DNA from: an uncultured Clostridia bacterium
GTDB lineage: Bacteria; Bacillota; Clostridia; Christensenellales; UBA1242
Reading direction: 5' to 3'
DNA length: 57,338 nt
Assembly: GCA_947625515.1 (NCBI GenBank)
Contig: CANQOO010000007.1
Span: forward strand, 1 to 57,338
Below the pieces are notes generated by a model, which was not told the origin of the DNA, made no database searches, and worked only from the letters and a program-made list of their open reading frames with translations. Positions 15,069 through 38,966 of this stretch are shown one piece after another (position 1 is the first letter of the stretch; every line of letters begins with the position of its first letter). A program made the position numbers and the translations under genes.

Positions 15069-16406
15069 TTATTTCCCCAAACAAAACTTGCTGAAAATTA
15101 GGTCAATGATGTCCTCATTTTCTGTGTTTCCAGTAATTTTCCCCAAAATTTGCCAAATTTTCTTAATTTGCATCGCAACAATGTCCAAGGACGGCATCTG
15201 TTCTTTCAAAACTTCTTGCATCACGTTCTCCGCTTCCTGCAAAATGCCAAACTGACGCTGATTTGTTATGACAAGTTTGTTGAAGTCAATTTCCTTCTCA
15301 ATCACCAGCTTCTTAATTTTTTCCTTCAAGGCAGAAATGTTTTTGTTTTGCAGTGCGGAAACTTCAATCTCGTTGTCCTTCTTTGGAAGAAGCCGCTTTT
15401 TGTCCGTTTTGTTGATGACATACACCACATTTTTGGCACTTTGTTGAAGCAGTTTTTCAATTTGCTTGTCGTCCTCACTCATCGGTTCGCTGCCGTCAAG
15501 CACAAAAAGCACAACGTCCGCTGCCTTGGCACTTTGCTTGCTTTTCTCAATGCCCAGACTTTCCACAAAATCTTCCGTGTCGCGGATGCCTGCCGTGTCC
15601 GTCAGGTTAAACTTCACGCCATCGAAAGAAAAACTTTCCACAATCTGGTCACGGGTCGTGCCTTGAATGTCGGTGACAATGGCACGCTCTTTGCCAAGCA
15701 AGGCATTCATTATGCTGCTTTTGCCAACATTTGTCCTGCCCACAAGGGCAACGTTGATGCCGTCGCTAAGATATTTCGCACTTTTGGAGTTTTCCAAAAT
15801 CTCTTCAAGTTCGCCGGAAAGTTTTTTCAGCCTCGAAAAAACATTCGTTTTCAATTTTGTTTCTTCCGTCTCGTCAGGATAGTCCATGCCGACTTCAAGT
15901 TCCGCCAAAATTGTTTTCAAACTTTCCTGGACAGACAAAATTCTTTGGGCGAGGGCACCGTTTGTCACCTGCAAACTTGACACAAGTTCCCCTTCGCTTT
16001 CAGCATTTATCTCCCCAATGATGGCCTCTGCCTTATCAAGCGTAATCTTCCCATTCAAAAACGCCCGCTTGGAAAATTCCCCAGGCTCTGCCAAAACCGC
16101 ACCTGCCTGCAACACTCTTTCCAGCACTTTTTGTGCCAGCAGCACGCCGCCATGAATTTGAAATTCCACCACGTCCTGCCCAGTGTATGAAAAGGGGGCT
16201 TTGAAATACACCATAAGGCACTGCTCAAAAACATTTTCTTCCAAGCACAATCTGCCAAAATACATGTGGCGAGGCTGAACATCTTGCATGTTTTTTGAAA
16301 TGAAAATGCTTTGGGCAATTTTCAAACTGTCCTTTCCACTCAATCTAACAATCGCAACCGCACCGGTGCCAAGAGGCGTGGCGATGGCGGCAATACATTT
16401 TTCCAT
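15069..16406 (-). CDS. mnmE: tRNA modification GTPase MnmE
   Basis: This 445-residue GTPase partners MnmG. The N-terminal tetrahydrofolate-binding domain begins CIAAIATPLGTGAVAIVRLSG. The inserted G domain has GRTNVGKSSIMNALLG (P-loop), DTAGIRDTED (switch II) and NKTD. The C-terminus ends FCLGK, close to the family's CIGK tail, with the catalytic Cys. The ATG is not preceded by a ribosome binding site. Instead a good promoter puts the predicted transcript start on the ATG itself (see 16413-16441), so the mRNA may be leaderless. The gene heads the mnmE-mnmG-rsmG cluster. Confidence 0.97.
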   Translation of the reverse strand: MEKCIAAIATPLGTGAVAIVRLSGKDSLKIAQSIFISKNMQDVQPRHMYFGRLCLEENVFEQCLMVYFKAPFSYTGQDVVEFQIHGGVLLAQKVLERVLQAGAVLAEPGEFSKRAFLNGKITLDKAEAIIGEINAESEGELVSSLQVTNGALAQRILSVQESLKTILAELEVGMDYPDETEETKLKTNVFSRLKKLSGELEEILENSKSAKYLSDGINVALVGRTNVGKSSIMNALLGKERAIVTDIQGTTRDQIVESFSFDGVKFNLTDTAGIRDTEDFVESLGIEKSKQSAKAADVVLFVLDGSEPMSEDDKQIEKLLQQSAKNVVYVINKTDKKRLLPKKDNEIEVSALQNKNISALKEKIKKLVIEKEIDFNKLVITNQRQFGILQEAENVMQEVLKEQMPSLDIVAMQIKKIWQILGKITGNTENEDIIDLIFSKFCLGK

Positions 16407-16412
16407 GTGAAT

Positions 16413-16441
16413 ATTTTATCAGAAGCCCGCAAAAATTTCAA
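16413..16441 (-). promoter_or_regulatory. mnmE promoter with start point on the ATG (leaderless geometry)
   Basis: On the minus strand TTGAAA (16436-16441), a 17-base spacer and TAAAAT (16413-16418) are followed by six bases and then the mnmE ATG. Counting the last -10 base as -7 puts +1 on the A of the start codon. Confidence 0.7.
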
Positions 16442-16635
16442 GCATTCTTTTCATCTTCCTGCCTCTTTTGCAAAAAATATGCACTGCGTTCCTGAAAAAT
16501 TTAAAAAGGTTGTGCTTCTTCGAAAACAATTAATGGAATAGATAAAGATTTATTGTCCAAATCAATTTTTTCCAAAAGTTTTTGTCACTCATTTTGCACT
16601 TTGCTCATATGAAATGCTTGAAAAAGGAGTTTTTT

Positions 16636-17661
16636 ATGCCAAATTCAGATTATTACATTGGCGGCAATGACGAGCACGGCGTCAATCCGCCCACTCCCGG
16701 AAAACGGACACCTGTTGTGCCGGGGCTTAACCGAACAATTTATGAAAACGAATTCAATCGTGCAGCCAAAGACAAATTTTTGGAGGCGTGCCTGAGACAG
16801 GGATTTTCTGTGTATGACGTCAAGCCAGAAGAGCAAGATGTTTCCATAACTCAGCGGGTGGTGAGAATCAATCGGCAAAACCTGACCGCTCTTGTCACTT
16901 TTGCTTACAACGCATATGGCGAATCCTTCAACAATGTGTCCGGCGTGGAGGTGTTCTATTCTCCAACAAATCCAAAAGCCACGCAAAGCCAGCGGCTTGC
17001 CCAAAGAATTTATGAACGGCTGTTGCAGGGCACCCCTCAAAATGGCCGCGGAGTGAAGCCTCTTGACGTTGGGGTGCTTTCAAGTGTGAATTGTGTCTCT
17101 GCCCTCATTGAGGCTGGGTTTATGACCAATCTTGCTGAGGCACGCAGAATGATTAATCCGCTCTTTCAGACGGAAGTTGGCGAAGAAGCATGCCAAGGCG
17201 TTTGCGACTTTTTGGGCGTGGATTTTGTGCCTCGCGGGAATCTGGAAAATTATCCTCTTCTCCGCCGCGGTGCCGACAACAATTTTGTTTTCTTGCTGCA
17301 ATTCATTCTCAATCAATATGGTGCAAACTTGACCGTTGACGGAATTTTTGGTGCCAACACCGAAGCGGCTGTGCGGCAGTTTCAAACGCAAAACGGTCTT
17401 TCCGTGGACGGCGTCGTGGGGCCAAACACTTGGGGGACGCTTTTGACGCTTATGCCATATCCAACTCTTCGCCAGGGTCAGCGAGGGGCATACGTGCGGC
17501 TGATGCAAAGCCTGCTGGAAAGCAATCTTGTGCCTGTGGGTGGGATTGATGGAATTTTCGGAGCTAACACCGAGGCAGCTGTGCGACAATTTCAATCCCA
17601 AAACGGCCTTGCCGTCGATGGCATCGTGGGGCCAAACACTTGGAACGCTTTGACGGACTAA
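16636..17661 (+). CDS. Amidase_3-like protein with two peptidoglycan-binding domains, active site incomplete
   Basis: This 341-residue protein resembles N-acetylmuramoyl-L-alanine amidases. The amidase-like part (1-180) keeps His14 (DEHGVNPPTPGKR), Glu39 in YENEFNRA, SGVEVFY, RGVKPLDVGVL and Glu159 in LIEAGFMTN. However, the third zinc-ligand motif, normally S-I-H-x-N-A, reads TFAYNAYG, with Ala90 where His is expected. Two PG_binding_1 repeats (about 205-275 and 281-341) each contain VDGIFGANTEAAVRQFQ and VDG(V/I)VGPNTW. No signal peptide is seen. The start is set by AAGGAG six bases upstream. It lies on the opposite strand to its neighbours, between mnmE and yidC where jag usually sits. It may be a spore-wall protein or a non-catalytic binder. 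Confidence 0.8.
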   Translation: MPNSDYYIGGNDEHGVNPPTPGKRTPVVPGLNRTIYENEFNRAAKDKFLEACLRQGFSVYDVKPEEQDVSITQRVVRINRQNLTALVTFAYNAYGESFNNVSGVEVFYSPTNPKATQSQRLAQRIYERLLQGTPQNGRGVKPLDVGVLSSVNCVSALIEAGFMTNLAEARRMINPLFQTEVGEEACQGVCDFLGVDFVPRGNLENYPLLRRGADNNFVFLLQFILNQYGANLTVDGIFGANTEAAVRQFQTQNGLSVDGVVGPNTWGTLLTLMPYPTLRQGQRGAYVRLMQSLLESNLVPVGGIDGIFGANTEAAVRQFQSQNGLAVDGIVGPNTWNALTD

Positions 17662-17751
17662 GTCAATTCAAAAGCGAGCTTCGCAAGAAGCGACTGACGT
17701 CTAATTCAATTATTTCTTTATTTATTTCATAAAATTTATTTCATTTTCATT

Positions 17752-17803
17752 TCTATTAATTCTTCTATATTAATTCTTATCTATTAATTCTGCTCTATTC
17801 TTT
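17752..17803 (+). repeat. Short AT-rich tandem repeat
   Basis: The word TATTAATTCT recurs at a spacing of about 14-16 bp. It lies in the gap between the convergent amidase-like gene and yidC. Confidence 0.6.
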
Positions 17804-17870
17804 TCTTTCTTATAATAATTCACTTTTAACTGACTTTTAATGGTTCACTATATTGAAAAAAAATTCAAAA

Positions 17871-17897
17871 AAAAACAAAGATACACTCTTTGTTTTT
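17871..17897. terminator. Bidirectional terminator downstream of yidC
   Basis: AAAAACAAAG (17871-17880) and CTTTGTTTTT (17888-17897) form a 10-bp stem with T runs on both strands. It can end the rpmH-rnpA-yidD-yidC transcript and the convergent amidase-like transcript. Confidence 0.8.
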
Positions 17898-17930
17898 TTA
17901 TTTCAACTTAATTTTTCAATTTCAATCTTT

Positions 17931-19265
17931 TTATCTGTCTTTGCGGCGATAGTCAACCACAACCTCAGTTTTTTGTTTTTTCTTCTTTTCGTCAAGTTCA
18001 TTCCATTTCTTCACAACAAAAGTTGTCAGCGGGGTGAGGGCAAGCATCATCAACTGCCCAACAATCAGATAGATTGCGAACAAACTTGTGTACATGAAGG
18101 TGAAAATTCCAATGATAAGCGGCATAACGAAATACATTGCAATGCTCTGCTTTTGTTTTGGCTCACCTTTCTTTCTCATCAAGAAATTTGACAGCCACAT
18201 TGAAAGCACGGATGTTGCCACCGCAATGATTGTGAGGATGTAATATCCATTCACGCCAAGAGCGTCTTTGTCAATGCCGGCAACGACATTTTTGAAGATT
18301 GTGCCTTCAAAATCATTTTTCTCTTCGGCAAGTTTTTCGTCCTCGGAATAGAACGCCTGCATGTAGGACTTAATTTCGGACTCTGTGAAAAGCGGGCTTG
18401 TTGGGCTTTCCGGTTTATAGATGTTCTTAATCCACAAAAAGCCTTCCTGCTCTGCCTTATATTGCTCATTCACAAGTTCTTCCGCTGCGGTCTTCAACGC
18501 CACGCTCAATTTAGTTGGGGCATAGTCAGGGGCCTCAATTTTAGGAGTTTCCGTTTCAGGCTCTTCCTCATCGGCAGACGCTTCTGGCTGCTCAACTTTG
18601 GCAGGCTCTTCAACATATGTCTTAACAAGCCTCCACACTGCTTCATTGTCGTTTGCAAGATTTTCATCAAACTCCACCGCAGTGGTGCTTGCAACATCCT
18701 CGCCAGCCTTAAAGACAGAAAGTTTCAGTTGTCTCGCACCAGTCTCCAATTCCACAATTTCTACTTTCAGGCTGTCGCCCTCGGCAAAATCGACATCGTC
18801 AGCAATGCTGTTGAGATTGATGACATTGGCATAGATGTTTTTCATGTCTTGATATTTTTCCACAATGTTGAAGTTTGAAACTGCCTGCAAGGAATTCCAA
18901 AGTGTCAAAAACACCGTAAATTGCAACACAAGTGCCACCAGCATCGGCAGGCAGCTGCCCATCATGTTGAATTGATATTTTTTATATATCTCGTTTGTCT
19001 TTTTTTGCAGTGTGGCGGGGTCATTGCCATATTTTGCCTTAACCGCGTCCAGTTCTGGCTTCATTTTATTGTTGATGTCGGCATTTTTCATTGTCACTTT
19101 TTTGTTGACAATGTCCACAAGTGCAAACAACAGCCTAACAATGACGGCAATCAAAATCACCGCCAAAATGTATGTGCCAAGTGCACCCTTAAACGCCTCC
19201 AAAATGGATTGCCACATTCCCTGAGGCTGTTTAAGTGTGACAAGCAAAGTGCTTACAAAATCCAT
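17931..19265 (-). CDS. yidC: Membrane protein insertase YidC with a large extracytoplasmic insertion
   Basis: This 444-residue insertase places proteins in the cytoplasmic membrane with or without Sec. The order of segments is: TM1 about 30-52 with the conserved Arg in AVIVRLLF; a cytoplasmic hairpin (NNKMKPELDAVKAKY...IYKKYQFN); TM2 about 100-128; a 200-residue outside region (129-340) with an acidic stretch ADEEEPETETPK; TM3 about 345-368; and the last hydrophobic pair about 380-430 before a basic tail. The usual loop between TM2 and TM3 is far shorter, so the insertion is a peculiarity. AAGGAG lies seven bases before the ATG. The start overlaps the end of yidD by 13 bases. Confidence 0.93.
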   Translation of the reverse strand: MDFVSTLLVTLKQPQGMWQSILEAFKGALGTYILAVILIAVIVRLLFALVDIVNKKVTMKNADINNKMKPELDAVKAKYGNDPATLQKKTNEIYKKYQFNMMGSCLPMLVALVLQFTVFLTLWNSLQAVSNFNIVEKYQDMKNIYANVINLNSIADDVDFAEGDSLKVEIVELETGARQLKLSVFKAGEDVASTTAVEFDENLANDNEAVWRLVKTYVEEPAKVEQPEASADEEEPETETPKIEAPDYAPTKLSVALKTAAEELVNEQYKAEQEGFLWIKNIYKPESPTSPLFTESEIKSYMQAFYSEDEKLAEEKNDFEGTIFKNVVAGIDKDALGVNGYYILTIIAVATSVLSMWLSNFLMRKKGEPKQKQSIAMYFVMPLIIGIFTFMYTSLFAIYLIVGQLMMLALTPLTTFVVKKWNELDEKKKKQKTEVVVDYRRKDR

Positions 19266-19567
19266 ATGTTCTCTCCTTTAATGTTGATTGGCACGGGGTC
19301 AAGCCCTCTTCTTTTCTGCCACGGCACGCACCTAAAAAGCCGTTTCAGTCCCAGCCAGCCGCCCTTAAAAACACCAAATTCCTTGACTGCCAAAACCATA
19401 TAGTTTGAGCAGGTCGGCACAAAGATGCAGCAGTGCGGCAAAAGTGGCGAAATGCAAAATTTGAAAAAATAAACCGGCAGCAAGCAAATATGTTTAACAC
19501 CATTTTTCAGCCAGTGCTTTTTCTGAGCTGGGGGTTGCGTGCCGCGTTCTTTTTCGTCAGTTTTCAA
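19253..19567 (-). CDS. yidD: Membrane protein insertion efficiency factor YidD
   Basis: A small membrane-associated protein that aids YidC/Sec insertion. The family core is complete: YFFKFCISPLLP, then the Cys-containing CIFVPTCSNYMVLAVKEFGVFKGGWLGLKRLFRC and P-W...GLDPVP. No ATG is available. I chose the TTG at 19567, preceded by AAGGGAAG, giving 104 residues; a TTG at 19603 would add 12 residues and lengthen the overlap with rnpA. The gene overlaps rnpA at its 5' end and yidC at its 3' end. Confidence 0.9.
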   Translation of the reverse strand: MKTDEKERGTQPPAQKKHWLKNGVKHICLLPVYFFKFCISPLLPHCCIFVPTCSNYMVLAVKEFGVFKGGWLGLKRLFRCVPWQKRRGLDPVPINIKGENIWIL

Positions 19568-19901
19568 CTTTCTTCCCTTGACATTTTTTTTCAAACTTTC
19601 CAAACAAGTATTCCACTTGTTTTTTCAGTGTGGCATAATCCAAAGCGGTGGCGTTTTCTTTTGCCATCAAAACATAGTTGAAATGCCCCGGCACGGGAAA
19701 GTTTCTCACAATTTCACGCAGGCGGCGTTTCAGCAAATTTCTTTTGTTGGCCTTGCCAAGTTTTTTGCTGATGGAAAAGCCAATTTTATAGTCGCTGAAT
19801 TTGCTCTTAACCACAAAAAGAGTGAAGTTCTCGGTATGCACCCTTTCACCCTTTTTGTAGATATAACTAAATTGGCTGTTCTTTTTCAGTCTGTGGTCCA
19901 T
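19557..19901 (-). CDS. rnpA: Ribonuclease P protein component
   Basis: This 114-residue basic protein binds the catalytic RNA of RNase P for 5' maturation of tRNAs. It shows LKKNSQFSYIYKKGERV, the Phe-rich strand ENFTLFVVKSK, IGFSISKKLGKANKRNLLKRRLRE (the RNR-type motif) and NYVLMAKENA. It starts nine bases after rpmH, the standard arrangement. Confidence 0.96.
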   Translation of the reverse strand: MDHRLKKNSQFSYIYKKGERVHTENFTLFVVKSKFSDYKIGFSISKKLGKANKRNLLKRRLREIVRNFPVPGHFNYVLMAKENATALDYATLKKQVEYLFGKFEKKCQGKKVEN

Positions 19902-19910
19902 AGAAAAACC

Positions 19911-20045: not shown

Positions 20046-20099
20046 AATTTTCTCCTAATTTCTTTTGCAAAATTTCCTGCTGCAAAAAGTTTCTGTGAT

Positions 20100-24553: not shown

Positions 24554-24582
24554 TTGGAAAAAAGAGAAATTTGTGATAAAAT
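24554..24582 (+). promoter_or_regulatory. recF promoter with start point on the GTG (leaderless geometry)
   Basis: TTGGAA (24554-24559), a 17-base spacer and TAAAAT (24577-24582), then six bases to the GTG at 24589. The predicted +1 is the first base of the start codon. No ribosome binding site is present. Confidence 0.65.
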
Positions 24583-24588
24583 AAGTGT

Positions 24589-25695
24589 GTGAAAATAAGT
24601 GAGCTGGAAATTAAGAATTTCAGAAACTACAAAAGCCTCAAAGTGTCGTTTGACGAGAAGGTGAATGTTTTCATTGGCAAAAATGCCCAGGGCAAAACCA
24701 ATCTTTTGGAGAGCATTTTTTGTTGTTGCATAGGCAAAAGTTTCAAAAACTGCAAAGATAAGGAACTGATTTTGTGGGGACAGGATGCCGCTTCCGTCAA
24801 AATGACGGCGGAAAAGAAATTTCGCGATGTGAAGGTGGAAATTTTTTATGACCGCTCTCGAAAAAAAACTGTCAAAATCAACTCGCTTCCAATCAAGCGG
24901 CTTGGTGAACTTATTGGCGAGGTGAATGTTGTTTTTTTCAGCCCGCAAGAACTTAAACTTGTCAAAGAAAGTCCGGAGCAAAGGCGGACGTTTATGGATA
25001 TCGACATAAGCCAGCAAAGCAGGAGATATTTCTATCAACTTTCCCGCTATGAAAAAATTTTGGCAAACAGGAACAAACTTTTCAAAATTTGCAGCACTCT
25101 TGATGCGGTGAAGGAAACGATTGACATTTGGGACAGGGCACTTGTTTCGTCGGCAAAAATTTTGGCGTTTGAGCGTCAGAAATTTGTGCAAGAAATTTTG
25201 CCTTATGCACAAAAAGCACACAGTTTCATAAGCGGCGGAAAGGAAAATTTGCAACTTTCATATCGCTGCGGATGCGGCGTGCCGCTGGACGAAAATTTTG
25301 AAGAAAATATGGCAAAACTTCTTCGGAAAAATCTGGAAAAAGACTTCAAACTTGGCTACACCTCCATCGGGCCGCATCGCGATGACATAGACATCTTTTT
25401 GAACGATGTTGAGGTGAAAAATTTTGGCTCGCAGGGGCAGCAACGCACTGTGGCACTTTCGCTTAAACTTGCCGAACTTGAAAACATGAAAGCAAATTGC
25501 GGGGAATATCCAATTTTGCTTTTGGACGATGTTTTTTCCGAACTTGATGCCGAGCGTCAGGCAAGGCTTTTGAAGTTTGTCGGCCGCACTCAAACATTCA
25601 TCACTTGCACGGACGAACGAGAAATTGAAGGCACGCTTTTTCATGTGTCCGCAGGACAAGTCACAAAAATCGAGCGGCACACCCAAAAAAGATAG
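24589..25695 (+). CDS. recF: DNA replication and repair protein RecF
   Basis: This 368-residue SMC-like ATPase helps load RecA at gaps. It begins with GTG and continues KISELEIKNFRNYKSL. The Walker A motif GKNAQGKTNLLES lies at about residues 30-42, the signature GSQGQQRTVALSLKLAE near 285-300, and Walker B LLLDDVFSELDAERQ follows. It is transcribed divergently from dnaA, unlike the usual dnaA-dnaN-recF run, and the small S4-domain gene that often precedes recF is absent. Confidence 0.96.
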   Translation: MKISELEIKNFRNYKSLKVSFDEKVNVFIGKNAQGKTNLLESIFCCCIGKSFKNCKDKELILWGQDAASVKMTAEKKFRDVKVEIFYDRSRKKTVKINSLPIKRLGELIGEVNVVFFSPQELKLVKESPEQRRTFMDIDISQQSRRYFYQLSRYEKILANRNKLFKICSTLDAVKETIDIWDRALVSSAKILAFERQKFVQEILPYAQKAHSFISGGKENLQLSYRCGCGVPLDENFEENMAKLLRKNLEKDFKLGYTSIGPHRDDIDIFLNDVEVKNFGSQGQQRTVALSLKLAELENMKANCGEYPILLLDDVFSELDAERQARLLKFVGRTQTFITCTDEREIEGTLFHVSAGQVTKIERHTQKR

Positions 25696-25752: not shown

Positions 25753-25826
25753 ATAATGAAAACATTGGCAAAATAATTTTTGACAAAATTCATTTGCAAA
25801 TTCAGACGAAAAAAAGGAGAATAAAC

Positions 25827-28805
25827 ATGGAATCAGCATTTTTGTGGGGAGGAATTGGCGTTTTGCTGCTGTTCATTTTGATTGGATTTGTGGCTGGGCT
25901 TATTCGCGGGCTGAAAAGGTCGGCTTTGCACATCCTCTTCTTTGTGGTAAGTTTTGTTGTGGCATTTTTCATAACAAAGCCAATCACATCTGCTCTTTTG
26001 GGCATTTCAATCACGATTGACGGCACTGCGACAACGCTTGGGGACATTGTTTTCACAATGATCAACAAGTCTTTTGATTTATCTCAATATCAAGCGGCGG
26101 GCGACTTTGCCAAAACGCTTCCACTTTCGCTTGCCAGCCCAATCATGTTCATCCTCATTTCGCTGATTGTATATTTTCTGTTTGACATCATCTATCTCAT
26201 TGTGGCACGCGTTTCTTTTGGCAAGAAAAAACAAGATTTTGCTCAAAGAAAGCCACTGCGTTGGTATGGCAGTGCGGTTGGTGCTGTGGAAGGCTTTTTG
26301 TTTATGTTCCTTCTCTTCGCTCCGCTGGCATCTCTCACTTCAACATATACTCAGTTGGCATCTGGTGAAGCCGCACAAAATGCAACGACGACGGCATATG
26401 TTGCCGCACAGCAAGAAGATTCTTCTTCTGACCTTCCGCAAATATCTGACCTTATTGCAGACAATGTCCCAAGCCTTGTGGATGACATCATCAAAGCTTT
26501 CAACGGCAGCGTCGTGGGGCAAGTTGCAGGTGCGGGCGGATTGAATGACGCACTTTTTGACTATCTTTCCGCATCCAAAGTTAACGGGGAGAGCATCAAT
26601 CTTCGCAAAGATATTCTCACACTTGCGGACACATATGACGAATTTGTCATTGCTTACAACGCGGCAAGGGAAGGCAAGATTGACCAAATTGAACTGACCG
26701 CTTTGAAAACAAATCTTGAAAAATTCTTAAATGAAGGCTTGTTCAGCGGTGTTGTTGCCCCAACAGTGAAAGATTTGGTGGTGAACATCAATCTTGACAA
26801 TCCACCAGAATTCATTGCAAGCAACGAATTTTTGATGGACCTTGTCACTGAACTGAAAACAGGCTTTTCGTCAAGTGACTTTGAGGCAAAAACATATCTG
26901 AAAGACGACCTTTTGAAGATTGTCGATGTTGCAGACATTGTGCTGTCCAGCAACTTATATAATGATTTCCAGAATTTGGACACATCAAATATGGAGGCAA
27001 TCCTCAAAAAAGTGTCCGAAAAAAGTGAGGACATAAAAACGATTGTGGATGAGGTGTTCACACTTCACATCCTCAACTATGGCATCAACGCAGTCGGCAA
27101 CTTTGCATCCGACAAAATTTCCGAATATTTTGACAATGCAGACATCAAACTTAACCTCTCTGCACAGGACAAAACCGCACTTATTTCCCAGACTTTGGAC
27201 GCTCTGCAATCCGCCCTGGAAATTAACGACAAGCTTCCAATTTCAAGCCTCTTTGACGGCGACCCGCTTGCCGCTCTTGCAGACATCACGGACCTTGACC
27301 AAATCCTCTTGCAGGTGGGCGAAACGCTGGACGAAATTCGCAATCTTGACATTCTTGTCTTTCCTGCACAAGCAGGTGGCGAAACAAAATATGTGTTCGA
27401 CGAAATTTTGACGCATTTCCACATCTCGTTGCTTGGCGACACCGTCAAGGACACCACAATTGGCACAAATGGCAAGATTGATTCCTATCAAGCACTTTGC
27501 AAACACCTGTTGAAGCCGGTGCAACTTGTGGAAAAAATGGATATTCTCTCCATTATCAACAATGCAAAGGTGGAGGACATCCTTGACAAACTGCTTAACG
27601 AAATGAATGGCACTCAGCAAAACTCCAAATTGCTGGCACAACTGCTGCTGCCGTTCTACGAACTTGACGAAGCTTCCATCAACACCGAGGAGCCAGACTC
27701 CACAATTCGCAAAAAAGTTTTTGATGAGATTGTCACTCAGTTGGATGAAAATGTGAACGAAATCAGCTTTGAGGATGCAACCACTGTCAACACATATGAA
27801 AATTGGGAATCAGAACTTTCCAAGATGGGCGAAACGCTTTTGCTTCTGGATGACAAAAACTTTAAGATTGAAGCCCAGGGAAAAGAATACACCTACATCC
27901 GCTATATGCTTTCCGAAAACGGCGAGCTGAGGACTTTGGTGGACAAAATTGTTCAGGATGGAAGACTTAAAAACATCCTCAAATCTCTGTTCAACTGCAA
28001 CACATTTGACCCACTTGTGGATGAAATTTTTGCAGAACTAGACAAAGCTCTTGCCGAACTTACTGGCGTTAAGCAAGGCGTTGTGACAACCGATTATTCG
28101 AGATTGGATGAAGCACAAGAAGACGAAATTGAAGCCGTTGCCGAGGTGTTTGAAAAGATGCTTAGCTTTGCAAACAACGATGCAAATCAAGACCTCAACA
28201 ACGTGTCATTCACGGAAATTGGAGAACTTTTGGACAGCATCAAAACAAATGCCTACAATTCTGGCACAAAAGACGGCGTATTTAAGGCGGCATTTGAAAA
28301 TCTTATCTGGTATCTCACTGGGCAGGACATCTCGGGAGGTCACACATATCAAAATGTGACAAGCAGCAAGCCTTTCTCTGAGAGCAACACATTTGATAAA
28401 TATCTCAAAAACGGGCAAGGCACAATTGACTATTACACCGTCAACTTCCAGCAAGAATTTGCCGAACTTGAAGATGTCAAAAACTTTGTTCAGGCTTTGA
28501 AAGACCAGAATGTCACAAACTTTGTAATTGACAAAGACCCGTCAAGAATTCAAGAAAGTGTGAACACCTTGATTGCAAACTTCAACAGTGTCCTTGGGCA
28601 ACACAGCACAACCGAGCAAGAAAAAATCACCGTTCTTACCAACGCGAGAAGGTTTATCGACGCGGCTGACGATGAGGGCGAAATCTTGCAGGATGCAAGC
28701 GACCCAACTGTCAAGCCTGTGCTTAGTGCTGCCATTGAGGCCACCTACCCTGACAGCGTTGACCTTCAAAATGCAGTCAAAAAACTTCTTGGCATTGAGG
28801 ACTAA
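25827..28805 (+). CDS. Large CvpA-like membrane protein with a long helical domain
   Basis: This 992-residue protein has a CvpA-like membrane part in its first 180 residues: a first helix (WGGIGVLLLFILIGFVAGLI), a G-L-K-R-S turn, a second helix (ILFFVVSFVVAFFI), then two more hydrophobic segments (SPIMFILISLIVYFLFDIIY and GFLFMFLLFAPL). The remaining 800 residues are charged, helix-rich and Asp/Glu/Leu-heavy with no motif I can name. AAGGAG is seven bases before the ATG at 25827. It is a single-gene unit with its own terminator, between recF and rsmH where gyrB/gyrA are often found. CvpA itself is 160-220 residues, so the extension is exceptional. Confidence 0.75.
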   Translation: MESAFLWGGIGVLLLFILIGFVAGLIRGLKRSALHILFFVVSFVVAFFITKPITSALLGISITIDGTATTLGDIVFTMINKSFDLSQYQAAGDFAKTLPLSLASPIMFILISLIVYFLFDIIYLIVARVSFGKKKQDFAQRKPLRWYGSAVGAVEGFLFMFLLFAPLASLTSTYTQLASGEAAQNATTTAYVAAQQEDSSSDLPQISDLIADNVPSLVDDIIKAFNGSVVGQVAGAGGLNDALFDYLSASKVNGESINLRKDILTLADTYDEFVIAYNAAREGKIDQIELTALKTNLEKFLNEGLFSGVVAPTVKDLVVNINLDNPPEFIASNEFLMDLVTELKTGFSSSDFEAKTYLKDDLLKIVDVADIVLSSNLYNDFQNLDTSNMEAILKKVSEKSEDIKTIVDEVFTLHILNYGINAVGNFASDKISEYFDNADIKLNLSAQDKTALISQTLDALQSALEINDKLPISSLFDGDPLAALADITDLDQILLQVGETLDEIRNLDILVFPAQAGGETKYVFDEILTHFHISLLGDTVKDTTIGTNGKIDSYQALCKHLLKPVQLVEKMDILSIINNAKVEDILDKLLNEMNGTQQNSKLLAQLLLPFYELDEASINTEEPDSTIRKKVFDEIVTQLDENVNEISFEDATTVNTYENWESELSKMGETLLLLDDKNFKIEAQGKEYTYIRYMLSENGELRTLVDKIVQDGRLKNILKSLFNCNTFDPLVDEIFAELDKALAELTGVKQGVVTTDYSRLDEAQEDEIEAVAEVFEKMLSFANNDANQDLNNVSFTEIGELLDSIKTNAYNSGTKDGVFKAAFENLIWYLTGQDISGGHTYQNVTSSKPFSESNTFDKYLKNGQGTIDYYTVNFQQEFAELEDVKNFVQALKDQNVTNFVIDKDPSRIQESVNTLIANFNSVLGQHSTTEQEKITVLTNARRFIDAADDEGEILQDASDPTVKPVLSAAIEATYPDSVDLQNAVKKLLGIED

Positions 28806-28877: not shown

Positions 28878-28905
28878 TTGCAAAAACAACGTTTTGTGCT
28901 AAGAT
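28878..28905 (+). promoter_or_regulatory. rsmH promoter with start point on the ATG (leaderless geometry)
   Basis: TTGCAA (28878-28883), a 16-base spacer and TAAGAT (28900-28905), then six bases to the rsmH ATG at 28912. No ribosome binding site lies between. Confidence 0.6.
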
Positions 28906-28911: not shown

Positions 28912-29844
28912 ATGGAATTTAAACATATTCCCGTCATGCTGAGCGAAGTGGTTGACGGGCTGGACATCAAACAGGAAGGCACGTATGTGGATTGCACTGT
29001 CGGCGGGGCGGGACATTCGCTGGAAATTGCCAAGAGACTGAAAGGCGGCCGCCTTATCTGTTTTGACCGCGACCAAAACGCCATCGACAAAAGCAGACAG
29101 GTGCTGGCAAAATTTCCTTGCGTCACACTGATTAAGGACAACTACAAAAACGCTCCGCAGGTGCTTAAAGAAATGGGCGTGCAGCAAATTGACGGCTTTT
29201 TGGTGGATCTGGGGGTCAGTTCGCATCAGATTGATGAGGGCGAGCGAGGTTTTTCTTTTGTTCACGACGGAGTTTTGGACATGAGGATGGATAAATCGGA
29301 GGACGTGCCGACCGCCAAAGAAATTGTGGCAACTTTTTCGGAGGACGAGCTTGCACGCATTTTCAAAGAGTTTGGGGAAGAGGAATTTGCCAAAACAATC
29401 GCACGCAATCTCGTGAAAGCCCGCGAAAAAGCGGAAATTTGCACCACATTTCAACTTCGGGATATCATTGAAAGCAGCCTGCCTAAAAAAGTGGTGTTCT
29501 CCCGCGGCGGGGCTTCAAAAAAAGTCTTTCAGGCACTGAGGATTTTCATAAATGGCGAACTTGACGGTCTGGAAAATTTCCTCACCGAAATGATTGGCAT
29601 GCTTTCCGTGGGCGGACGCGGCTGCGTGCTGACCTTCCACAGCCTTGAAGACAGAATTGTGAAGAATGTCTTTAAATTAGAAAGCACCGACTGCATTTGC
29701 CCGCCAAAAACGCCAATTTGCATCTGCGGGCATAAGGCGAGGGTGAAACTTGTCAGCCGCAAGCCGATTGTCGCAACTTTGCAAGAGCAGCAGCAAAACA
29801 GTCGAAGCACTTGTGCAAAACTTCGAATTGTGCAGCGGATTTAA
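28912..29844 (+). CDS. rsmH: 16S rRNA (cytosine1402-N4)-methyltransferase RsmH
   Basis: This 310-residue SAM-dependent enzyme methylates C1402 in the ribosomal P site. Family marks are the start HIPVMLSEVVDGL, the SAM motif DCTVGGAGHSLEI, DGFLVDLGVSSHQID, RGFSFVHDGVLDMRMD and the late GGRGCVLTFHSLEDRIVK, with a C-terminal Cys-x-Cys segment. It is the first gene of a reduced division cluster; mraZ is missing upstream. It may be translated from a leaderless mRNA. Confidence 0.97.
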   Translation: MEFKHIPVMLSEVVDGLDIKQEGTYVDCTVGGAGHSLEIAKRLKGGRLICFDRDQNAIDKSRQVLAKFPCVTLIKDNYKNAPQVLKEMGVQQIDGFLVDLGVSSHQIDEGERGFSFVHDGVLDMRMDKSEDVPTAKEIVATFSEDELARIFKEFGEEEFAKTIARNLVKAREKAEICTTFQLRDIIESSLPKKVVFSRGGASKKVFQALRIFINGELDGLENFLTEMIGMLSVGGRGCVLTFHSLEDRIVKNVFKLESTDCICPPKTPICICGHKARVKLVSRKPIVATLQEQQQNSRSTCAKLRIVQRI

Positions 29845-32884: not shown

Positions 32885-32913
32885 TTGCTAAAATTTTTCA
32901 AAAATTGTAAAAT
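32885..32913 (+). promoter_or_regulatory. Promoter of the YugP-like gene with start point on the ATG (leaderless geometry)
   Basis: TTGCTA (32885-32890), a 17-base spacer and TAAAAT (32908-32913), then six bases to the ATG at 32920. No ribosome binding site is seen. Confidence 0.65.
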
Positions 32914-32919: not shown

Positions 32920-33648
32920 ATGTGGACTTATGTAATAATTGGCGTTGTTGTTATGCTGGTGGCGGGGCTGTGCTTTGCACTTGCCGTGGCAGGCTTTTCT
33001 GGCGAGAACTTTGTGGAGAAACTTCGGCAGTTGGATGCCACGCCAAACAGCCTTCGGGCAACCACACTTTCATATGTTGAGAGCATAAACAAAAGATATT
33101 TTGGCGGCAAATTGAGATTGCAAGATTGCCCAGAGTTTGAGGACCATTACAGTCGCGGAGTGGTTGCACTTTCGGAAAAAACGATGCAGAGCAACAGCAT
33201 TGCGTCTTTTGCCATTGTTTCTCACGAACTGGGGCATGCCAAGCAGGATTTTTCTGGCGACACGCTGACCAAGCACTGGAAACTTCGCCGAGCGGTGAAA
33301 ATATGCGGATTGTTTTTCATGCCGCTCTTTCTTGCAGGCACGGTGCTTTCGCTTTTGTGGGTTTTTGAGATTTTGCCCCAACTTGTCTATGTCTGCCTGG
33401 GCGTTGGGCTTGTGGCGGCGAGCATAGTCATCTTCTTTTTGGCAATCATTTTGAAATGGAGAGAGATTAAGATTGAACGTGAAGCCTCCGATTTTGCTTT
33501 GCAATTTCTGGGCGAATATCTTTCGGACGAGGAAGTGAAACTTGCACAAGAACTCTTGAACGCCGCCCGCTTGACATATTGGGCATCCTTAATTCGCACT
33601 CTGCTGTCTTGGACGCTGCTGACGGGCAAAACAAAATTGTTCAATTGA
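32920..33648 (+). CDS. YugP-family zinc metallopeptidase, membrane-bound
   Basis: This 242-residue protein belongs to the Zn_peptidase_2/YugP family. It has an N-terminal membrane helix (VIIGVVVMLVAGLCFALAVAG), the zinc motif HELGH near residues 103-107, two central membrane helices, and EREASDFALQFL, which should carry the third zinc ligand. The NSIASFAIVSHELGHAKQD context fits the family well. The substrate is unknown. It ends at the hairpin at 33657. Confidence 0.9.
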   Translation: MWTYVIIGVVVMLVAGLCFALAVAGFSGENFVEKLRQLDATPNSLRATTLSYVESINKRYFGGKLRLQDCPEFEDHYSRGVVALSEKTMQSNSIASFAIVSHELGHAKQDFSGDTLTKHWKLRRAVKICGLFFMPLFLAGTVLSLLWVFEILPQLVYVCLGVGLVAASIVIFFLAIILKWREIKIEREASDFALQFLGEYLSDEEVKLAQELLNAARLTYWASLIRTLLSWTLLTGKTKLFN

Positions 33649-34180: not shown

Positions 34181-34209
34181 TTGACATTTCCAATTTTTTT
34201 GACTAAAAT
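34181..34209 (+). promoter_or_regulatory. Promoter of the small membrane protein gene
   Basis: TTGACA (34181-34186), a 17-base spacer and TAAAAT (34204-34209). The leader is about 40 bases, with AAAAGGAG before the ATG. Confidence 0.8.
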
Positions 34210-34255
34210 TGAAGTGTAACAAAAATTACAAATTTATTTAAAAGGAGAATTAGAG

Positions 34256-34489
34256 ATGAAGGATATCATTAAGACATTTGATAATTTCCCACTTCTCGTT
34301 AAGATCATTTTGGCTCTGCCAGTTCTTGACATCTGCTGGGCAATTTATCGTCTTTGCCGTTCAATCGACAAGAAGAACACTGTTGGCATCGTTCTTGGCA
34401 TTCTGATGTTGTTCTTCTGCCCAGCCATCGTTTGGGTTCTTGACATCATCACTCTTCTTGTGATGGGCAAAGTTATCTGGATTGACTAA
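34256..34489 (+). CDS. Small two-helix membrane protein
   Basis: This 77-residue protein has two hydrophobic helices (LLVKIILALPVLDICWAIY and GIVLGILMLFFCPAIVWVLDI) joined by a charged turn, CRSIDKKN. I do not recognise a family with certainty; small membrane proteins of this shape are frequent in Clostridia. It is monocistronic, with a near-consensus promoter, a strong ribosome binding site and a strong terminator, suggesting high expression. Confidence 0.8.
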   Translation: MKDIIKTFDNFPLLVKIILALPVLDICWAIYRLCRSIDKKNTVGIVLGILMLFFCPAIVWVLDIITLLVMGKVIWID

Positions 34490-34501
34490 TTCCAGAGAAA
34501 A

Positions 34502-34533
34502 AAACTCTCTCGGCTTGCCGGGGGAGTTTTTTT
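34502..34533 (+). terminator. Terminator of the small membrane protein gene
   Basis: AAACTCTCTCGGC (34502-34514) pairs with GCCGGGGGAGTTT (34517-34529) with G-U pairs, followed by a T run. Confidence 0.88.
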
Positions 34534-34754
34534 GTAAATTATTTTTGTTTTCACATTTTTCACTTTATGTTTTTATAATGTTCACTTGATGTTTTACAAT
34601 TGCAGCACCTGATGTTTATACAGTTTCCAATTTATGCTGTTGCTGTCTTTCAGTTTGAAGGACTCCGCTTTTCAAAATTTTTCAGTTTTGCCTTTATTGT
34701 TTGATGCCAACACAAAAGTTTCTTTCATAATATTTTTCCTTGATAAATAATTTT

Positions 34755-36122
34755 TTAAAATTTGATTTTGTCTTCAACATATTGCACAAGCTTGTCAATT
34801 TGCAGGCGAATTTGCTGCATACTGTCGCGGTCGCGGACGGTCACGGTGTTGTCCTCAAGCGTGTCAAAGTCGATTGTCACGCAAAGCGGAGTGCCAATCT
34901 CGTCCTGGCGGCGATAGCGTTTGCCAATCGAGCCTGCCTCGTCATAGTCGCACATGAAGTGTTTGGAAAGGTGGGCATAGACCTCGCGGGCTTTTTCGGA
35001 AAGATTCTTTTGCAGCGGCAGAACAGCCACTTTATATGGTGCCAGGGCAGGATGCAGGTGCATGACAACACGCGTTTCGCCGTTTTCCAAATTTTCTTCG
35101 TCATACGCCTCGCAAAGCACCGCCAAAACAAGTCTGTCCGCACCGATGGAATATTCAATGACAGTCGGCACAAACTTTTCATTTGAGACGGGGTCGAGAT
35201 ATTGCATCGACTTTCCGCTGAACTCCTGATGACGGGACAAATCCCATGTGCCGCGATGATGGATGCCATTTAGCTCCTCCCAGCCGATTGGGAATTTGTA
35301 TTGAATGTCGCAGGCGGCCTTTGCATAGTGAGCCAATTTGTCATGGTCGTGGAAGCGAAGATTTTCCTCTTTCAGCCCCACATCTTTGGCAAATTGCAGT
35401 GCCGCAGCCTTGTTTTTTTCATAAATTTCCATGGAGTTTTCATCGCGACAGAATGTTTGAAATTCCATTTGCTCAAATTCAATCGTTCTGAAAAGAAAGT
35501 TTCCTGGCGTAATTTCATTTCGGAAGGACTTTCCAATTTGAGCAATGGAAAAAGGCACCTTCGCACGGGTGGTGCGTTGAACATTCAAAAAATTGACATA
35601 TTCACCTTGACAGGTTTCTGGACGAAGATACACCACGTCTGCCTCCGCTTCCAGGCTGCCGCGGGAAGTCTTGAACATTGGGTTAAACTTCCTTATCGGC
35701 GTCCAATCAAAATTGCCGCAGTGAGGGCAGCAAATGTGATGGTCGGAGATGTATTTTTCAAGTTCTTCATTGCTCATAGCCTCAGCAGCGACACTGCCTT
35801 TGCTGTGAGCCTCAATCAAAGTGTCCGCACGGAAACGCTGCTTGCATTTCTTGCAATCCATTTTCGGGTCGCCAAAACTTTGCACGTGACCGCTGGCTTC
35901 CCAAACTTTTGGATTCATCAAAATCGCCGCATCCACGCCATAAGAATTTGGCTCTTCCTGCACAAATCTTTTCCACCAAGCACGCTTGATATTGTTTTTC
36001 AGTTCCACTCCCACCGGGCCAAAATCCCACGTGTTTGCAAAACCGTTGTAAATCTCGCTGCCCGGAAAGACAAATCCGCGACTTTTGCAAAGATTGACAA
36101 TTTTGTCCATTGTTTTTTCCAT
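34755..36122 (-). CDS. glyS: Glycyl-tRNA synthetase (alpha2 type)
   Basis: This 455-residue class II synthetase charges tRNA-Gly. It is the single-chain dimeric type: FVFPGSEIYNGFANTWDFGPVG at the N-terminus, FNPMFKTSRG, LRPETCQGEYVNF (motif 2 region), QIGKSFRNEITPG, and motif 3 in EYSIGADRLVLAVL. A C-terminal anticodon-binding domain follows (PALAPYKVAVLPL). A zinc-binding set is present in CKKCKQRF and CPHCGNFDW. GGAG lies before the ATG. It is controlled by the T-box upstream. Confidence 0.96.
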   Translation of the reverse strand: MEKTMDKIVNLCKSRGFVFPGSEIYNGFANTWDFGPVGVELKNNIKRAWWKRFVQEEPNSYGVDAAILMNPKVWEASGHVQSFGDPKMDCKKCKQRFRADTLIEAHSKGSVAAEAMSNEELEKYISDHHICCPHCGNFDWTPIRKFNPMFKTSRGSLEAEADVVYLRPETCQGEYVNFLNVQRTTRAKVPFSIAQIGKSFRNEITPGNFLFRTIEFEQMEFQTFCRDENSMEIYEKNKAAALQFAKDVGLKEENLRFHDHDKLAHYAKAACDIQYKFPIGWEELNGIHHRGTWDLSRHQEFSGKSMQYLDPVSNEKFVPTVIEYSIGADRLVLAVLCEAYDEENLENGETRVVMHLHPALAPYKVAVLPLQKNLSEKAREVYAHLSKHFMCDYDEAGSIGKRYRRQDEIGTPLCVTIDFDTLEDNTVTVRDRDSMQQIRLQIDKLVQYVEDKIKF

Positions 36123-36240
36123 TTTTCTCTCCTTTATTTTGTTTTTTTATTGTGATTCTTTGTTTTTGGCTTTAATTTAGGCAAATTTGTGCAAAATTTT
36201 CTGTTTTTTTTGCCGTTTTTTGCCAATTTTTTGCATTAAG

Positions 36241-36384
36241 GAAAAACAAAAACCCTATGCAAAAATCTGCATAGGGGCGATTTTTTAAGTTCGCTGTTCC
36301 ACCCTAATTCGTGAGAAACTCACCTTATTTCACGTCTTTACGCCGACAAGCGTTTGCTCGGGAGTTGCCAATTCCGTCATTGCA
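36241..36384 (-). promoter_or_regulatory. Glycine T-box riboswitch with a very short 5' region
   Basis: Read on the minus strand, the conserved T-box AGGGTGGAACAGCGA (36292-36306) can form the antiterminator with TCGCCCCT downstream, leaving a seven-base bulge TGGAACA. TGGA would pair with UCCA of a tRNA-Gly having U73. The competing terminator is CCCTATGCA/TGCATAGGG plus T runs (36241-36277). A stem III hairpin GTGAG-TTT-CTCAC precedes the T-box, and a GGC specifier sits in the loop of GGA-ATTGGCAAC-TCC (about 36361-36375). Only about 75 bases lie between the predicted +1 and the T-box, too few for a standard Stem I. Confidence 0.88.
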
Positions 36385-36389
36385 CAAAT

Positions 36390-36418
36390 ATCATATTACA
36401 AATTTTCAAAAATGTCAA
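36390..36418 (-). promoter_or_regulatory. glyS/T-box promoter
   Basis: On the minus strand TTGACA (36413-36418), a 17-base spacer and TATGAT (36390-36395); +1 near 36383. The DNA between this promoter and 36586 is AT-rich and shows no gene. Confidence 0.8.
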
Positions 36419-36586
36419 TAATTTTCAAGAAAAATACAAATTTTCGGCAATTTTTGCTTTTTTTTGTGTAAAAAATTAAAATTTGCTGAATTTTATGAGC
36501 CTTAAATTGGCATTGATGAAATGAAATTTGCCACCTGTTTTGAATTAAACGTCAAAGTGCGGCTGTTTTTGAAAATTTTGAAAAGT

Positions 36587-38167
36587 TTATGACTTAAACT
36601 TTTCCATATATTCTTCATAACTCATTTGCTTGTCGATGATTGTGTTTTCGTCCACAATGTCGATGATGCGATTCGCCACAGTTTCGATGATTTCTTGGTC
36701 GCCGGTGGCAAAAAGCATTGGACCTTTGAAATTTGTCATGCCCTTGTTGAGGGAGGTGATGCTTTCAAGGTCCAGGTGGTTGGTCGGCTCGTCAAGGATG
36801 AGCACATTTCCGCTTTCCAGCATAATTTTTGCCAGCATGCATCGCACTCGCTCGCCGCCGGAGAGGACATTGACCTCCTTCAAACTTTCTTCGCCCGAAA
36901 ACAACATTCTGCCCAGCCAACCTCGCACAAAACTTTCCGTCTTGTCTTTGGAAAATTGCCTCAGCCAGTCCACAATGGAAAGATGGCAGCCTTCAAAAAA
37001 CTCGCGATTGTCTTGCGGAAGATAGGACGCCTTGATGGTTTTGCCCCAGCGAATGCTGCCGCTGTCAGGCTCTTCTTTTCCTGCCAAAATGTTGAAAAGT
37101 GTGGTCAAAACAAGCGAATTTTGCGACAAAAACACAATTTTTTGTCCATGCTCCACAGTGAAAGACAGATTTTTGAACATCCCTTTTTTCGTCAGCCCTT
37201 CCACCTTCAAAATTTCCTTGCCAATTTCTTGCTCTGGCTTGAAATCGACATATGGATATTTTCGCGAGGACGGCTTGAAATCGTCCAAAGTGAGTTTTTC
37301 CAGTTCTTTCTTGCGGCTTGTGGCCTGCTTGGATTTTGAAGCGTTTGCGGAAAATCGTGCGATAAAGTCCTTCAACTCTTTGGCACGCTCTTCTGCTTTT
37401 TTGTTTTGGTCTTTCTTTTGCCTTGCAAGCAGTTGGCTGGTTTCATACCAAAAATCATAGTTGCCAAGATACATATTTATTTCGCCAAAATCCACATCGC
37501 AAATGTGCGTGCAAACTTTGTTCAAAAAGTGACGATTGTGTGACACGATGATGACAATATTTTCAAAATCCAGCAAAAAGTTTTCCAGCCAGCGGATGGT
37601 CTTAAAATCCAAATTGTTTGTTGGCTCATCCAAAATCAAGATGTCAGGATTGCCAAAAAGTGCCTGAGCAAGCAGCACTTTCACCTTAACTTTGGCGTCA
37701 AGTGAGCTCATAAGGTCATAAAAACAACTCTCCGGCACGCCCAAGTTTTGCAAAAGCGACTTTGCCTCCCCGTCCGCTTCCCAGCCGCCAAGTTCGGCAA
37801 ATTCCGTTTCAAGTTCTCCTGCACGGATGCCGTCCTCGTCCGAAAAATCCGGCTTGGCATAGAGGGCGTCCTTTTCTTTCTGAATTTCCATCAGGCGTTT
37901 ATGCCCCAAAAGCACGGTGTCCAAAACCGTTTCGCCGTCATATTTGTTCTGATTTTGCTCCAAGACGGACATACGCTCACCGGGGCTGACCACAACCTCG
38001 CCGGTGTTTGGCTCAATTTCGCCCGTCAAAATCTTCAAAAAAGTGGATTTTCCCGCCCCATTTGCACCAATGATGCCATAGCAGTTGCCCTTGGTGAATT
38101 TCAGGTTGACATCCTTATAAAGTCGCCTGCCGCCAAATGCGAGCGACACGTTGATTGCTTGAATCAT
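36587..38167 (-). CDS. ABC-F family ATPase (YkpA/YbiT-like)
   Basis: This 526-residue protein has two ABC ATPase domains and no membrane segments; ABC-F proteins act on the ribosome. Domain 1 has an intact Walker A GANGAGKST, a degenerate signature (SSLDAKVK), Walker B ILILDEPTNNLD and SHNRHFL. The linker is basic (RFSANASKSKQATSRKKELEKL). Domain 2 has a degenerate Walker A (FLSQNSLVLTTLF) but an intact LSGGERVR and LILDEPTNHLD. As I recall, these asymmetries are typical of the YkpA/YbiT branch and not a sign of decay. Its start overlaps the stop of the upstream gene by four bases, so the two are co-translated. Confidence 0.92.
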   Translation of the reverse strand: MIQAINVSLAFGGRRLYKDVNLKFTKGNCYGIIGANGAGKSTFLKILTGEIEPNTGEVVVSPGERMSVLEQNQNKYDGETVLDTVLLGHKRLMEIQKEKDALYAKPDFSDEDGIRAGELETEFAELGGWEADGEAKSLLQNLGVPESCFYDLMSSLDAKVKVKVLLAQALFGNPDILILDEPTNNLDFKTIRWLENFLLDFENIVIIVSHNRHFLNKVCTHICDVDFGEINMYLGNYDFWYETSQLLARQKKDQNKKAEERAKELKDFIARFSANASKSKQATSRKKELEKLTLDDFKPSSRKYPYVDFKPEQEIGKEILKVEGLTKKGMFKNLSFTVEHGQKIVFLSQNSLVLTTLFNILAGKEEPDSGSIRWGKTIKASYLPQDNREFFEGCHLSIVDWLRQFSKDKTESFVRGWLGRMLFSGEESLKEVNVLSGGERVRCMLAKIMLESGNVLILDEPTNHLDLESITSLNKGMTNFKGPMLFATGDQEIIETVANRIIDIVDENTIIDKQMSYEEYMEKFKS

Positions 38168-38931
38168 GTTTTCTCCTTGCTGACATTTTTTTGTTTTTGT
38201 TTTGCTTGAATGCCAAGTTGTTTGTTTTGCGTGCGAACCTTTTGCACATCTTTTTGATTTTGCAATTTTTTGGCATTTTTTGCGGTTTTTTCTGCATTTT
38301 TTGCTTTTTTATTGTGCAAATCATGTGCAATTTTTGCTTCTTTTTGATGCTGTTTTTCTTTGGCAGATTTTTTCTTCTTCGCGTTTTCAAACGCCTGCAA
38401 TTTTTCGGCATAACTTTTCATATACTTTCCTTCCAAGCCGGAAAGTAAGGCGGAAAAATTGACATTCGCATCATATAGTCCGTCCAAGAATTCTCCAAAG
38501 ATTGGGTCAAGATTATATAACTGCCGATAGGCATCAATTTCGTCAAAATCTTGCCCATGAAAATCCTTCAAAAGTGCATGCGAAAGTTCTTGTCTCAGTT
38601 GAAGATAAAAATCAAATTTTTGACAAAATTCAACAGAAAAATTTGACAAAAATTGCGGGTTTTTTGCGAGTTTTTGAATTTTTTGAACATTTTTCACCGA
38701 ATTTCTTATGTGTTTTTTGAAATTGTTTTTCTCTTCGTAAACAAACGGCGGAAAAATGTTTTCATTTGCAAATTCATTCAATAAAAGTCGCTCTTTGATT
38801 GAGCTTTCGTTCACGTCAAAGTCCATCGGCAAGCAGTGCGTCCCAGAAAGCCGATAAAGCCGCCCAAGTTTCGGATTTACGAGGTTGAGATAATTGAAAA
38901 TTTCCATGTTGTTGTTAAGTTTTTTCTTCAT
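38164..38931 (-). CDS. Uncharacterised protein with a Lys-rich coiled tail, in operon with the ABC-F gene
   Basis: I do not recognise this 255-residue protein. The first 150 residues look globular (EIFNYLNLVNPKLGRLYRLSG, YLQLRQELSHALLKDFHG, FGEFLDGLYDANVNF). The last 80 are Lys/Ala/Gln-rich and probably helical (KKKKSAKEKQHQKEAKIAHD), which could bind RNA or ribosomes. The start is at 38931 (MKKKLNNNMEIF). A consensus promoter places +1 exactly on this ATG and there is no ribosome binding site, so the mRNA is probably leaderless. The shared transcript with the ABC-F ATPase hints at a ribosome-linked role. Confidence 0.7.
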   Translation of the reverse strand: MKKKLNNNMEIFNYLNLVNPKLGRLYRLSGTHCLPMDFDVNESSIKERLLLNEFANENIFPPFVYEEKNNFKKHIRNSVKNVQKIQKLAKNPQFLSNFSVEFCQKFDFYLQLRQELSHALLKDFHGQDFDEIDAYRQLYNLDPIFGEFLDGLYDANVNFSALLSGLEGKYMKSYAEKLQAFENAKKKKSAKEKQHQKEAKIAHDLHNKKAKNAEKTAKNAKKLQNQKDVQKVRTQNKQLGIQAKQKQKNVSKEKT

Positions 38932-38937
38932 GATGCC

Positions 38938-38966
38938 ATTATACCTCAAAAACCTTCCTGTGTCAA
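38938..38966 (-). promoter_or_regulatory. Consensus promoter with start point on the ATG (leaderless geometry)
   Basis: On the minus strand TTGACA (38961-38966), a 17-base spacer and TATAAT (38938-38943), then six bases to the ATG at 38931. It is the clearest of the five leaderless-type promoters in the window. Confidence 0.85.

Follow-up and report, generated by a model that had tools for sequence, protein, structure and literature searches.

Leaderless genes of the TA-led kind, in which a -10 box lies some 12 bp ahead of the start codon, are well established in bacteria (Zheng et al. 2011, PMC3160421), and according to the part of that survey drawn on here leaderless genes occur in 56 of 209 Firmicutes genomes, make up 4.2% of the genes of those genomes on average, and are within this phylum concentrated in Lactobacillales and Mycoplasma. 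In GeneMarkS-2 predictions, 21.6% of bacterial species use leaderless mRNAs, and these may include relatives of the host considered below (PMC9581028), while a scan in Deinococcus-Thermus was extended to other phyla and may likewise cover such relatives (PMC12340547). Within Clostridia, 15 genes with leaderless starts, referred to as few, are reported for C. difficile (PMC7438776), and in C. phytofermentans 4% of the intergenic sense starts are described as leaderless, the genes in question generally keeping a ribosome binding site and another start further upstream (PMC5171806). Here we describe a stretch of 57,338 nucleotides (contig CANQOO010000007.1, in the following the window) from an uncultured Clostridia bacterium of the order Christensenellales (assembly GCA_947625515.1), in which mnmE, recF, rsmH, a yugP-like gene and a gene starting at position 38,931 (the 38,931 gene) all have a promoter placed such that transcription is predicted to begin on the first base of the start codon. 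Judged from comparisons of sequence, these genes very probably belong to a real leaderless class that is transcribed from the start codon and exists beside an ordinary class of genes with a Shine-Dalgarno (SD) site.

The arrangement can be read directly from the sequence, and the geometry claimed by the first-pass annotation, namely a -35/-10 pair with a spacer of 16-17 bases and a gap (the number of bases between the end of the -10 hexamer and the start codon) of exactly 6, is found at all five starts. On the minus strand, the mnmE coding sequence (15069..16406, ATG, TIGR00450) is preceded by a promoter at 16413..16441, consisting of TTGAAA (16436-16441), a 17-base spacer and TAAAAT (16413-16418), followed by the discriminator ATTCAC (16407-16412) and a predicted +1 at 16406. 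The recF coding sequence (24589..25695, plus strand, GTG, TIGR00611) has its promoter at 24554..24582, with TTGGAA, 17 bases and TAAAAT with a TGn extension, and the discriminator AAGTGT leads to a predicted +1 at 24589. Likewise on the plus strand, rsmH (28912..29844, ATG, TIGR00006) follows TTGCAA, 16 bases and TAAGAT with a TGn extension (28878..28905; discriminator TTTTGT, predicted +1 28912), and the gene for a YugP-like Zn metallopeptidase (32920..33648, ATG, Pfam PF04298, Zn_peptidase_2) follows TTGCTA, 17 bases and TAAAAT (32885..32913; discriminator AACAAT, predicted +1 32920). Finally, the 38,931 gene (38164..38931, minus strand, ATG), which encodes a protein of 255 residues, is read from a promoter at 38938..38966 with TTGACA (38961-38966), 17 bases and TATAAT (38938-38943), the discriminator GGCATC and a predicted +1 at 38931. 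MnmE, RecF and RsmH match NCBIfam equivalogs, and no Pfam or NCBIfam model matched the 38,931-gene protein at 1e-3; it is this gene without a family that has the near-consensus promoter, and it is present in 16 of 41 genomes of the genus, its own included. At its 3' end it runs into the beginning of an ABC-F gene (36587-38167), for which reason the ABC-F operon mentioned in the first-pass annotation is plausible, and the two genes may be regarded as a putative operon. The accompanying claim that none of the five has a ribosome binding site proved right for four starts, which are without an SD word, and needs modification for the 38,931 gene, where a weak GAGGT is found 11 nt upstream and overlaps the -10 hexamer.

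The spacing furthermore exceeds chance in the host genome, the assembly of which comprises 1,114,438 bases, is 81% complete and yielded no 16S rRNA gene. A sample of 457 kb was compiled from the window and 20 stretches of 20 kb, ten lying end to end in contig 1, five in contig 2 and five in contigs 3 and 4, and gene starts were called blind to promoters by a simple script. The first-pass annotation had proposed that the spacing be compared with shuffled upstream regions, and in a version of this test run on the sample the excess is confirmed: a strict consensus (TTGNNN, a spacer of 15-18 and TANNNT) occurs at gap 6 for 14 of the 315 starts, while 300 dinucleotide shuffles yield 0.65 on average and never more than 5, and every other gap in the range 0-14 has just 0-3 starts. 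In the whole assembly TTG..TANNNT-N6-ATG has 59 matches, compared to 19 for a reversed-pattern control, and a scan free of any gene model, covering ATGs close to gene starts, finds TANNNT at gap 6 for 22 of 449 in frame versus 3 of 319 out of frame. It is therefore hardly credible that AT-rich DNA merely happens to carry the loose TANNNT hexamer at this spacing; such DNA admittedly abounds in the hexamer, which is found at any one gap in about 4-6% of the orthologue rows discussed below, but the shuffled, out-of-frame and reversed-pattern controls all speak against chance, as does a ratio close to 1 in 298 genomes outside the order.

The starts with and without an SD site moreover behave as two separate classes. 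In agreement with the earlier statement that most other genes have SD sites, 189 of the 315 called starts score as SD, and not one of these has a promoter scoring at least 6.5 at gaps 0-11; their promoters begin at gap 12 and are spread out to 30, where the scan ends. Among the 126 genes without SD, on the other hand, promoters of this score are found at gap 6 in 15 and at other gaps in 0-3 each, and of 93 SD-less genes in a second species of the genus (G006), 8 have a strong promoter at gap 6. A pyrimidine (C or T) precedes the start codon in 19 of 20 leaderless calls versus 168 of 295 other starts, in keeping with the YR rule of transcription initiation (PMC4782308) if transcription starts on the codon itself. 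The 5' end of the mRNA would thereby coincide with the first base of the start codon, and translation would start without SD pairing by way of recognition of the 5'-terminal start codon, as in other bacterial leaderless mRNAs.

These considerations presuppose that the start codons have been read correctly, and it might be argued that the true starts lie downstream, with SD sites of their own, and that the promoters merely happen to precede upstream in-frame ATGs. One of the five starts does lend itself to such an argument, since the promoter-blind caller placed the start of YugP at 32953 instead of 32920. However, the N-termini of MnmE and RecF align with those of orthologues from the first residues or nearby, most of the rsmH relatives listed, 45 of 80 loci, begin at the same residues, and YugP orthologues align from about the 32920 start. 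Misread start codons are thus very unlikely, and the five appear to be the true ones, with that of YugP being less certain. Leaderless starts are liable to be misplaced by gene finders that are optimized for SD sites.

In related genomes of the genus, the gap is retained for four of the five genes. Matches within the genus were found in 34 of 37 genomes for full-length mnmE, 38 of 41 for recF, 39 of 41 for yugP and 16 of 41 for the 38,931 gene; at least 30 loci were available for each of the first three, and the rows compared, own genome included, number 30, 30, 30 and 16, respectively. Two of the yugP rows were dropped for want of a usable start, and the lower ones, at 36-45% identity, are remote and possibly contain some paralogues. 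With the own genome excluded, the best promoter at gaps 0-22 lies at gap 5-7 in 90 of 100 orthologues, in 72 of these at gap 6, whereas in 200 rounds of shuffling the rows the count at gap 5-7 averages 13.9 per 100 and does not exceed 24. Gene by gene, and now counting the own genome, TANNNT is found at gap 5-7 in 26 of 30 rows of mnmE, 27 of 30 of recF, all 28 usable rows of yugP and 14 of 16 of the 38,931 gene; a pyrimidine is found at -1 in 94 of these 104 rows and an SD-like word in just 2. The start codon of recF is GTG in 8 of its 30 rows, its own among them. As a control, 30 orthologues of SD genes in the G006 sample have no motif at gap 5-7 in any case and keep the SD site in 29, and among 36 other genes with orthologues in that sample the motif is found at gap 5-7 in one.

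Outside the genus the arrangement was followed with the -10 element narrowed to TANAAT, by counting matches at gap 5-7 and at gap 11-13 within the same genomes, any ATG being counted whether or not it is a gene start. The 248 genomes of the host's order contain 9,372 matches at gap 5-7 versus 5,746 at gap 11-13, and 208 of them have more at 5-7, whereas 298 genomes of the same phylum outside the order contain 8,880 versus 8,457, corresponding to a ratio of 1.05 with an equal median, and 160 of these have more at gap 5-7. The ratio is 1.8 in the own genus (11 genomes), 1.6 in the other genera of the own family (6 genomes) and 42 to 26 in the own genome; it attains 1.7-2.5 in families f3, f6, f15, f17, f20, f25 and f32 with 14-17 genomes each (533 versus 229 in f3), is 1.3 in f11 and f31, and falls below 1 in f4, f13 and f24. 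Outside the order a ratio of 1.6 is reached by 4 of the 173 genomes with at least 40 matches. One of these, G502, a genome of about 1.2 Mb from another family of the same class, has 73 matches at gap 5-7 versus 42 at gap 11-13 and possibly represents another leaderless lineage. Promoter-blind gene calls on single genomes give a similar picture. In G052, a member of f17 with 57% GC and about 2 Mb, 11 of the 131 SD-less genes have a strong promoter at gap 6 and none of the 193 SD genes has one at gaps 0-11, whereas G262 from f4, a family of the same order without excess of the pattern, has none at gap 6 among 109 genes without SD at 52% GC. Taken together, the family ratios and the results for these two genomes indicate that the leaderless class is a property of some of the order's families and does not depend on low GC. 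For mnmE itself, 20 other families of the order show gap 6 in two (G054 and G041), no motif at gap 5-7 in 15 and no match in the stretch in three. With these findings, part of an order of Clostridia would join the bacteria in which leaderless mRNAs form a regular and conserved class, and the presence of families with and without the excess in one order makes gain and loss of the leaderless route open to comparison.

A number of observations nevertheless weigh against this reading. The five stretches in contigs 3 and 4 were picked with the match list already in view, and when the strict gap-6 count is broken down into the window (4 of 34), the chosen stretches (5 of 78) and the remainder in contigs 1 and 2, the last contributes just 5 of 203. 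From this low end, taken from stretches not chosen for matches, and a high end of 20 of 315 scored calls in the whole sample, the leaderless class would amount to roughly 2-6% of the genes in the host genome, beside the normal SD class. A permissive start model furthermore returns 41 of 313 genes at gaps 5-7, but six triples of shifted gaps still give 14-29, which means that some of its calls are background or ordinary promoters with a leader; this being the least clean of the controls, the strict and promoter-blind counts are used in its place. Among the 195 SD genes of G006, a strong promoter is found at gap 1 in 2 and at gaps 2-15 in none, and only three leaderless genes have usable orthologues in the G006 sample, two of which keep the geometry. 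Within the order, 40 of the 248 genomes, including most of f4 and f24, are without excess. Finally, the notion of five genes sharing one geometry holds across the genus for mnmE, recF, yugP and the 38,931 gene and does not hold for rsmH, since among the first 20 rsmH relatives listed, the kinship of which is unspecified, TANNNT is at gap 5-7 in one and an SD-like site is present in 16, and rsmH of the same-genus G006 also lacks the geometry. Equal conservation of all five starts is thereby ruled out, and the leaderless arrangement of rsmH looks local.

The tenth of the orthologues with the best promoter elsewhere, several of them at gap 8-9 corresponding to leaders of 2-3 bases, deserves separate mention, since it bears on whether the genes are strictly leaderless. 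They might alternatively have ordinary promoters pushed close to the gene in compact genomes, with transcription starting a few bases off the codon, or be translated from an mRNA made by a promoter further upstream. Such an explanation would be in keeping with the small genomes of the genus, about 0.7-1.5 Mb, with the ten deviating orthologues and with the second upstream start usually possessed by C. phytofermentans genes with a leaderless start (PMC5171806, in the part considered here). Compactness alone, however, would be expected to give a spread of gaps rather than the sharp peak seen at 6, which is found also in the roughly 2 Mb genome of G052 at 57% GC; none of the 189 SD genes has a strong promoter at gaps 0-11, and no SD site would be available to a longer leader. 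We accordingly consider this explanation improbable and favor transcription from the start codon, a reading which has come through the sequence tests to which it was put, i.e. sharp spacing, absence of SD, conserved N-termini, 100 orthologues, the -1 pyrimidine and a ratio of about 1 outside the order.

As to the nature of the genes concerned, the first-pass annotation had pointed to tRNA, rRNA and ribosomes. A family search was carried out on 31 genes, namely the five and 26 of the 35 calls of the permissive model outside the window (nine low scorers being left out), some of which may be background. Named families among these are UvrD, UvrB, RecD2, SMC/RecF, a phage-integrase-type recombinase, Dus, RsfS, a PP-loop protein, MnmE, RsmH, SpoIIE, a MurB-type reductase, YgjP-like and YugP-like metallopeptidases and a GTPase with GTP-binding domains, which we take to be HflX-like; several are without family. 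By name, six of the 31 relate to RNA modification or ribosome function and five to DNA repair or recombination. The proposed theme thus captures some of the genes and is too narrow, UvrD, UvrB, RecD2, RecF and SpoIIE being present as well, and a purely ribosomal or tRNA theme was set aside in view of the repair and recombination genes and those without family. For comparison, 30 SD genes drawn at random from 122 and searched with a stricter cut-off include five ribosomal proteins, the chaperonins of 10 and 60 kD, two HU-type DNA-binding proteins, ClpP and RimP; ribosomal proteins accordingly number 0 of 31 in the leaderless set versus 5 of 30 (p = 0.024). Codon adaptation, measured relative to eight abundant genes, has a median of 0.640 in 20 leaderless versus 0.671 in 121 SD genes (p = 0.002; p = 0.013 for genes of at least 200 residues), and the top tenth holds none of the 20 and 19 of the 121. 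It thus seems that abundant proteins use SD sites and that the leaderless class holds low-abundance enzymes of DNA repair, tRNA/rRNA modification and other processes, but this is the weakest of the inferences, since the difference in codon adaptation is small and the remaining SD-less genes come close with 0.648, which makes the low-abundance role a lead that is not specific to leaderless starts. There may be a division of labor between a leaderless class of low-abundance enzymes and an SD class of abundant proteins. We regard it as conceivable, although rather doubtful, that several families of the order keep a dedicated second expression route, in which low-abundance genome-maintenance and RNA-modification genes are leaderless and held so gene by gene by selection. 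If true, translation of the leaderless set would be separable from SD-led synthesis of abundant proteins, such as during stress or in the presence of antibiotics blocking leadered initiation. Leaderless mRNAs are described as responding differently to some antibiotics in translation (PMC3160421, PMC9581028).

Some further features of the window should be mentioned. Following recF, a frame of 1,003 residues (25794-28805, plus strand) has Colicin V production (PF02674, residues 23-203) as its sole Pfam match. An open frame of 4,309 codons at 39058-51987 (plus strand), listed from a TTG, would encode a giant protein and has no Pfam match at 1e-5, and a type IV secretion coupling protein of the TraG/TraD type (PF02534; 54901-56913, minus strand) hints at a conjugative element near the contig end.

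Among known systems, mycobacterial leaderless transcripts begin with GTG as well as ATG, as does recF among the present genes, and their share of the genes is larger than here. They are transcribed from the start codon, as is predicted for the host genes, and differ from the host in phylum and GC (PMC4633059, PMC3898074, in the parts considered). The Deinococcus-Thermus genes of PMC12340547 resemble those of the host in having a -10 motif directly before the open reading frame (ORF) and, as predicted for the host, a leaderless mRNA, RecF of Deinococcus radiodurans being one example, but -10-adjacent ORFs are there put at about 30% on average, as opposed to a few percent here together with a dominant SD class and a recognizable -35. 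Within Clostridia, the leaderless starts of C. difficile (PMC7438776) and C. phytofermentans (PMC5171806) are, as far as these sources were drawn on, few or much rarer than elsewhere, whereas in the present genes SD sites are absent and the geometry is conserved. Our literature search found no paper joining leaderless genes with Christensenellales or with uncultured Clostridia, which is a weak negative. When held against the described gene types, the host genes have the -10-like TANNNT about 12 bp upstream and lack the SD site, as TA-led genes do, and the purine-rich site 3-12 nt before the start that marks SD-led genes is missing from the four genes followed across the genus, while the rsmH relatives have one in 16 of 20. 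The closest counterpart is consequently the TA-led class of PMC3160421, with which the host shares TANNNT about 12 bp upstream (counted from the first T), absence of SD and a proportion of a few percent of the genes; a TG extension is reported there for several low-GC genomes and is found here as TGn at recF and rsmH. In the part of that paper considered here, the leaderless genes of Firmicutes are centered on Lactobacillales and Mycoplasma and no word beginning Clostridi occurs, whereas the present case concerns an order of Clostridia and is followed gene by gene. Leaderless genes themselves are thus already known, and what is of interest here is their gene-by-gene conservation and its limits within one order.

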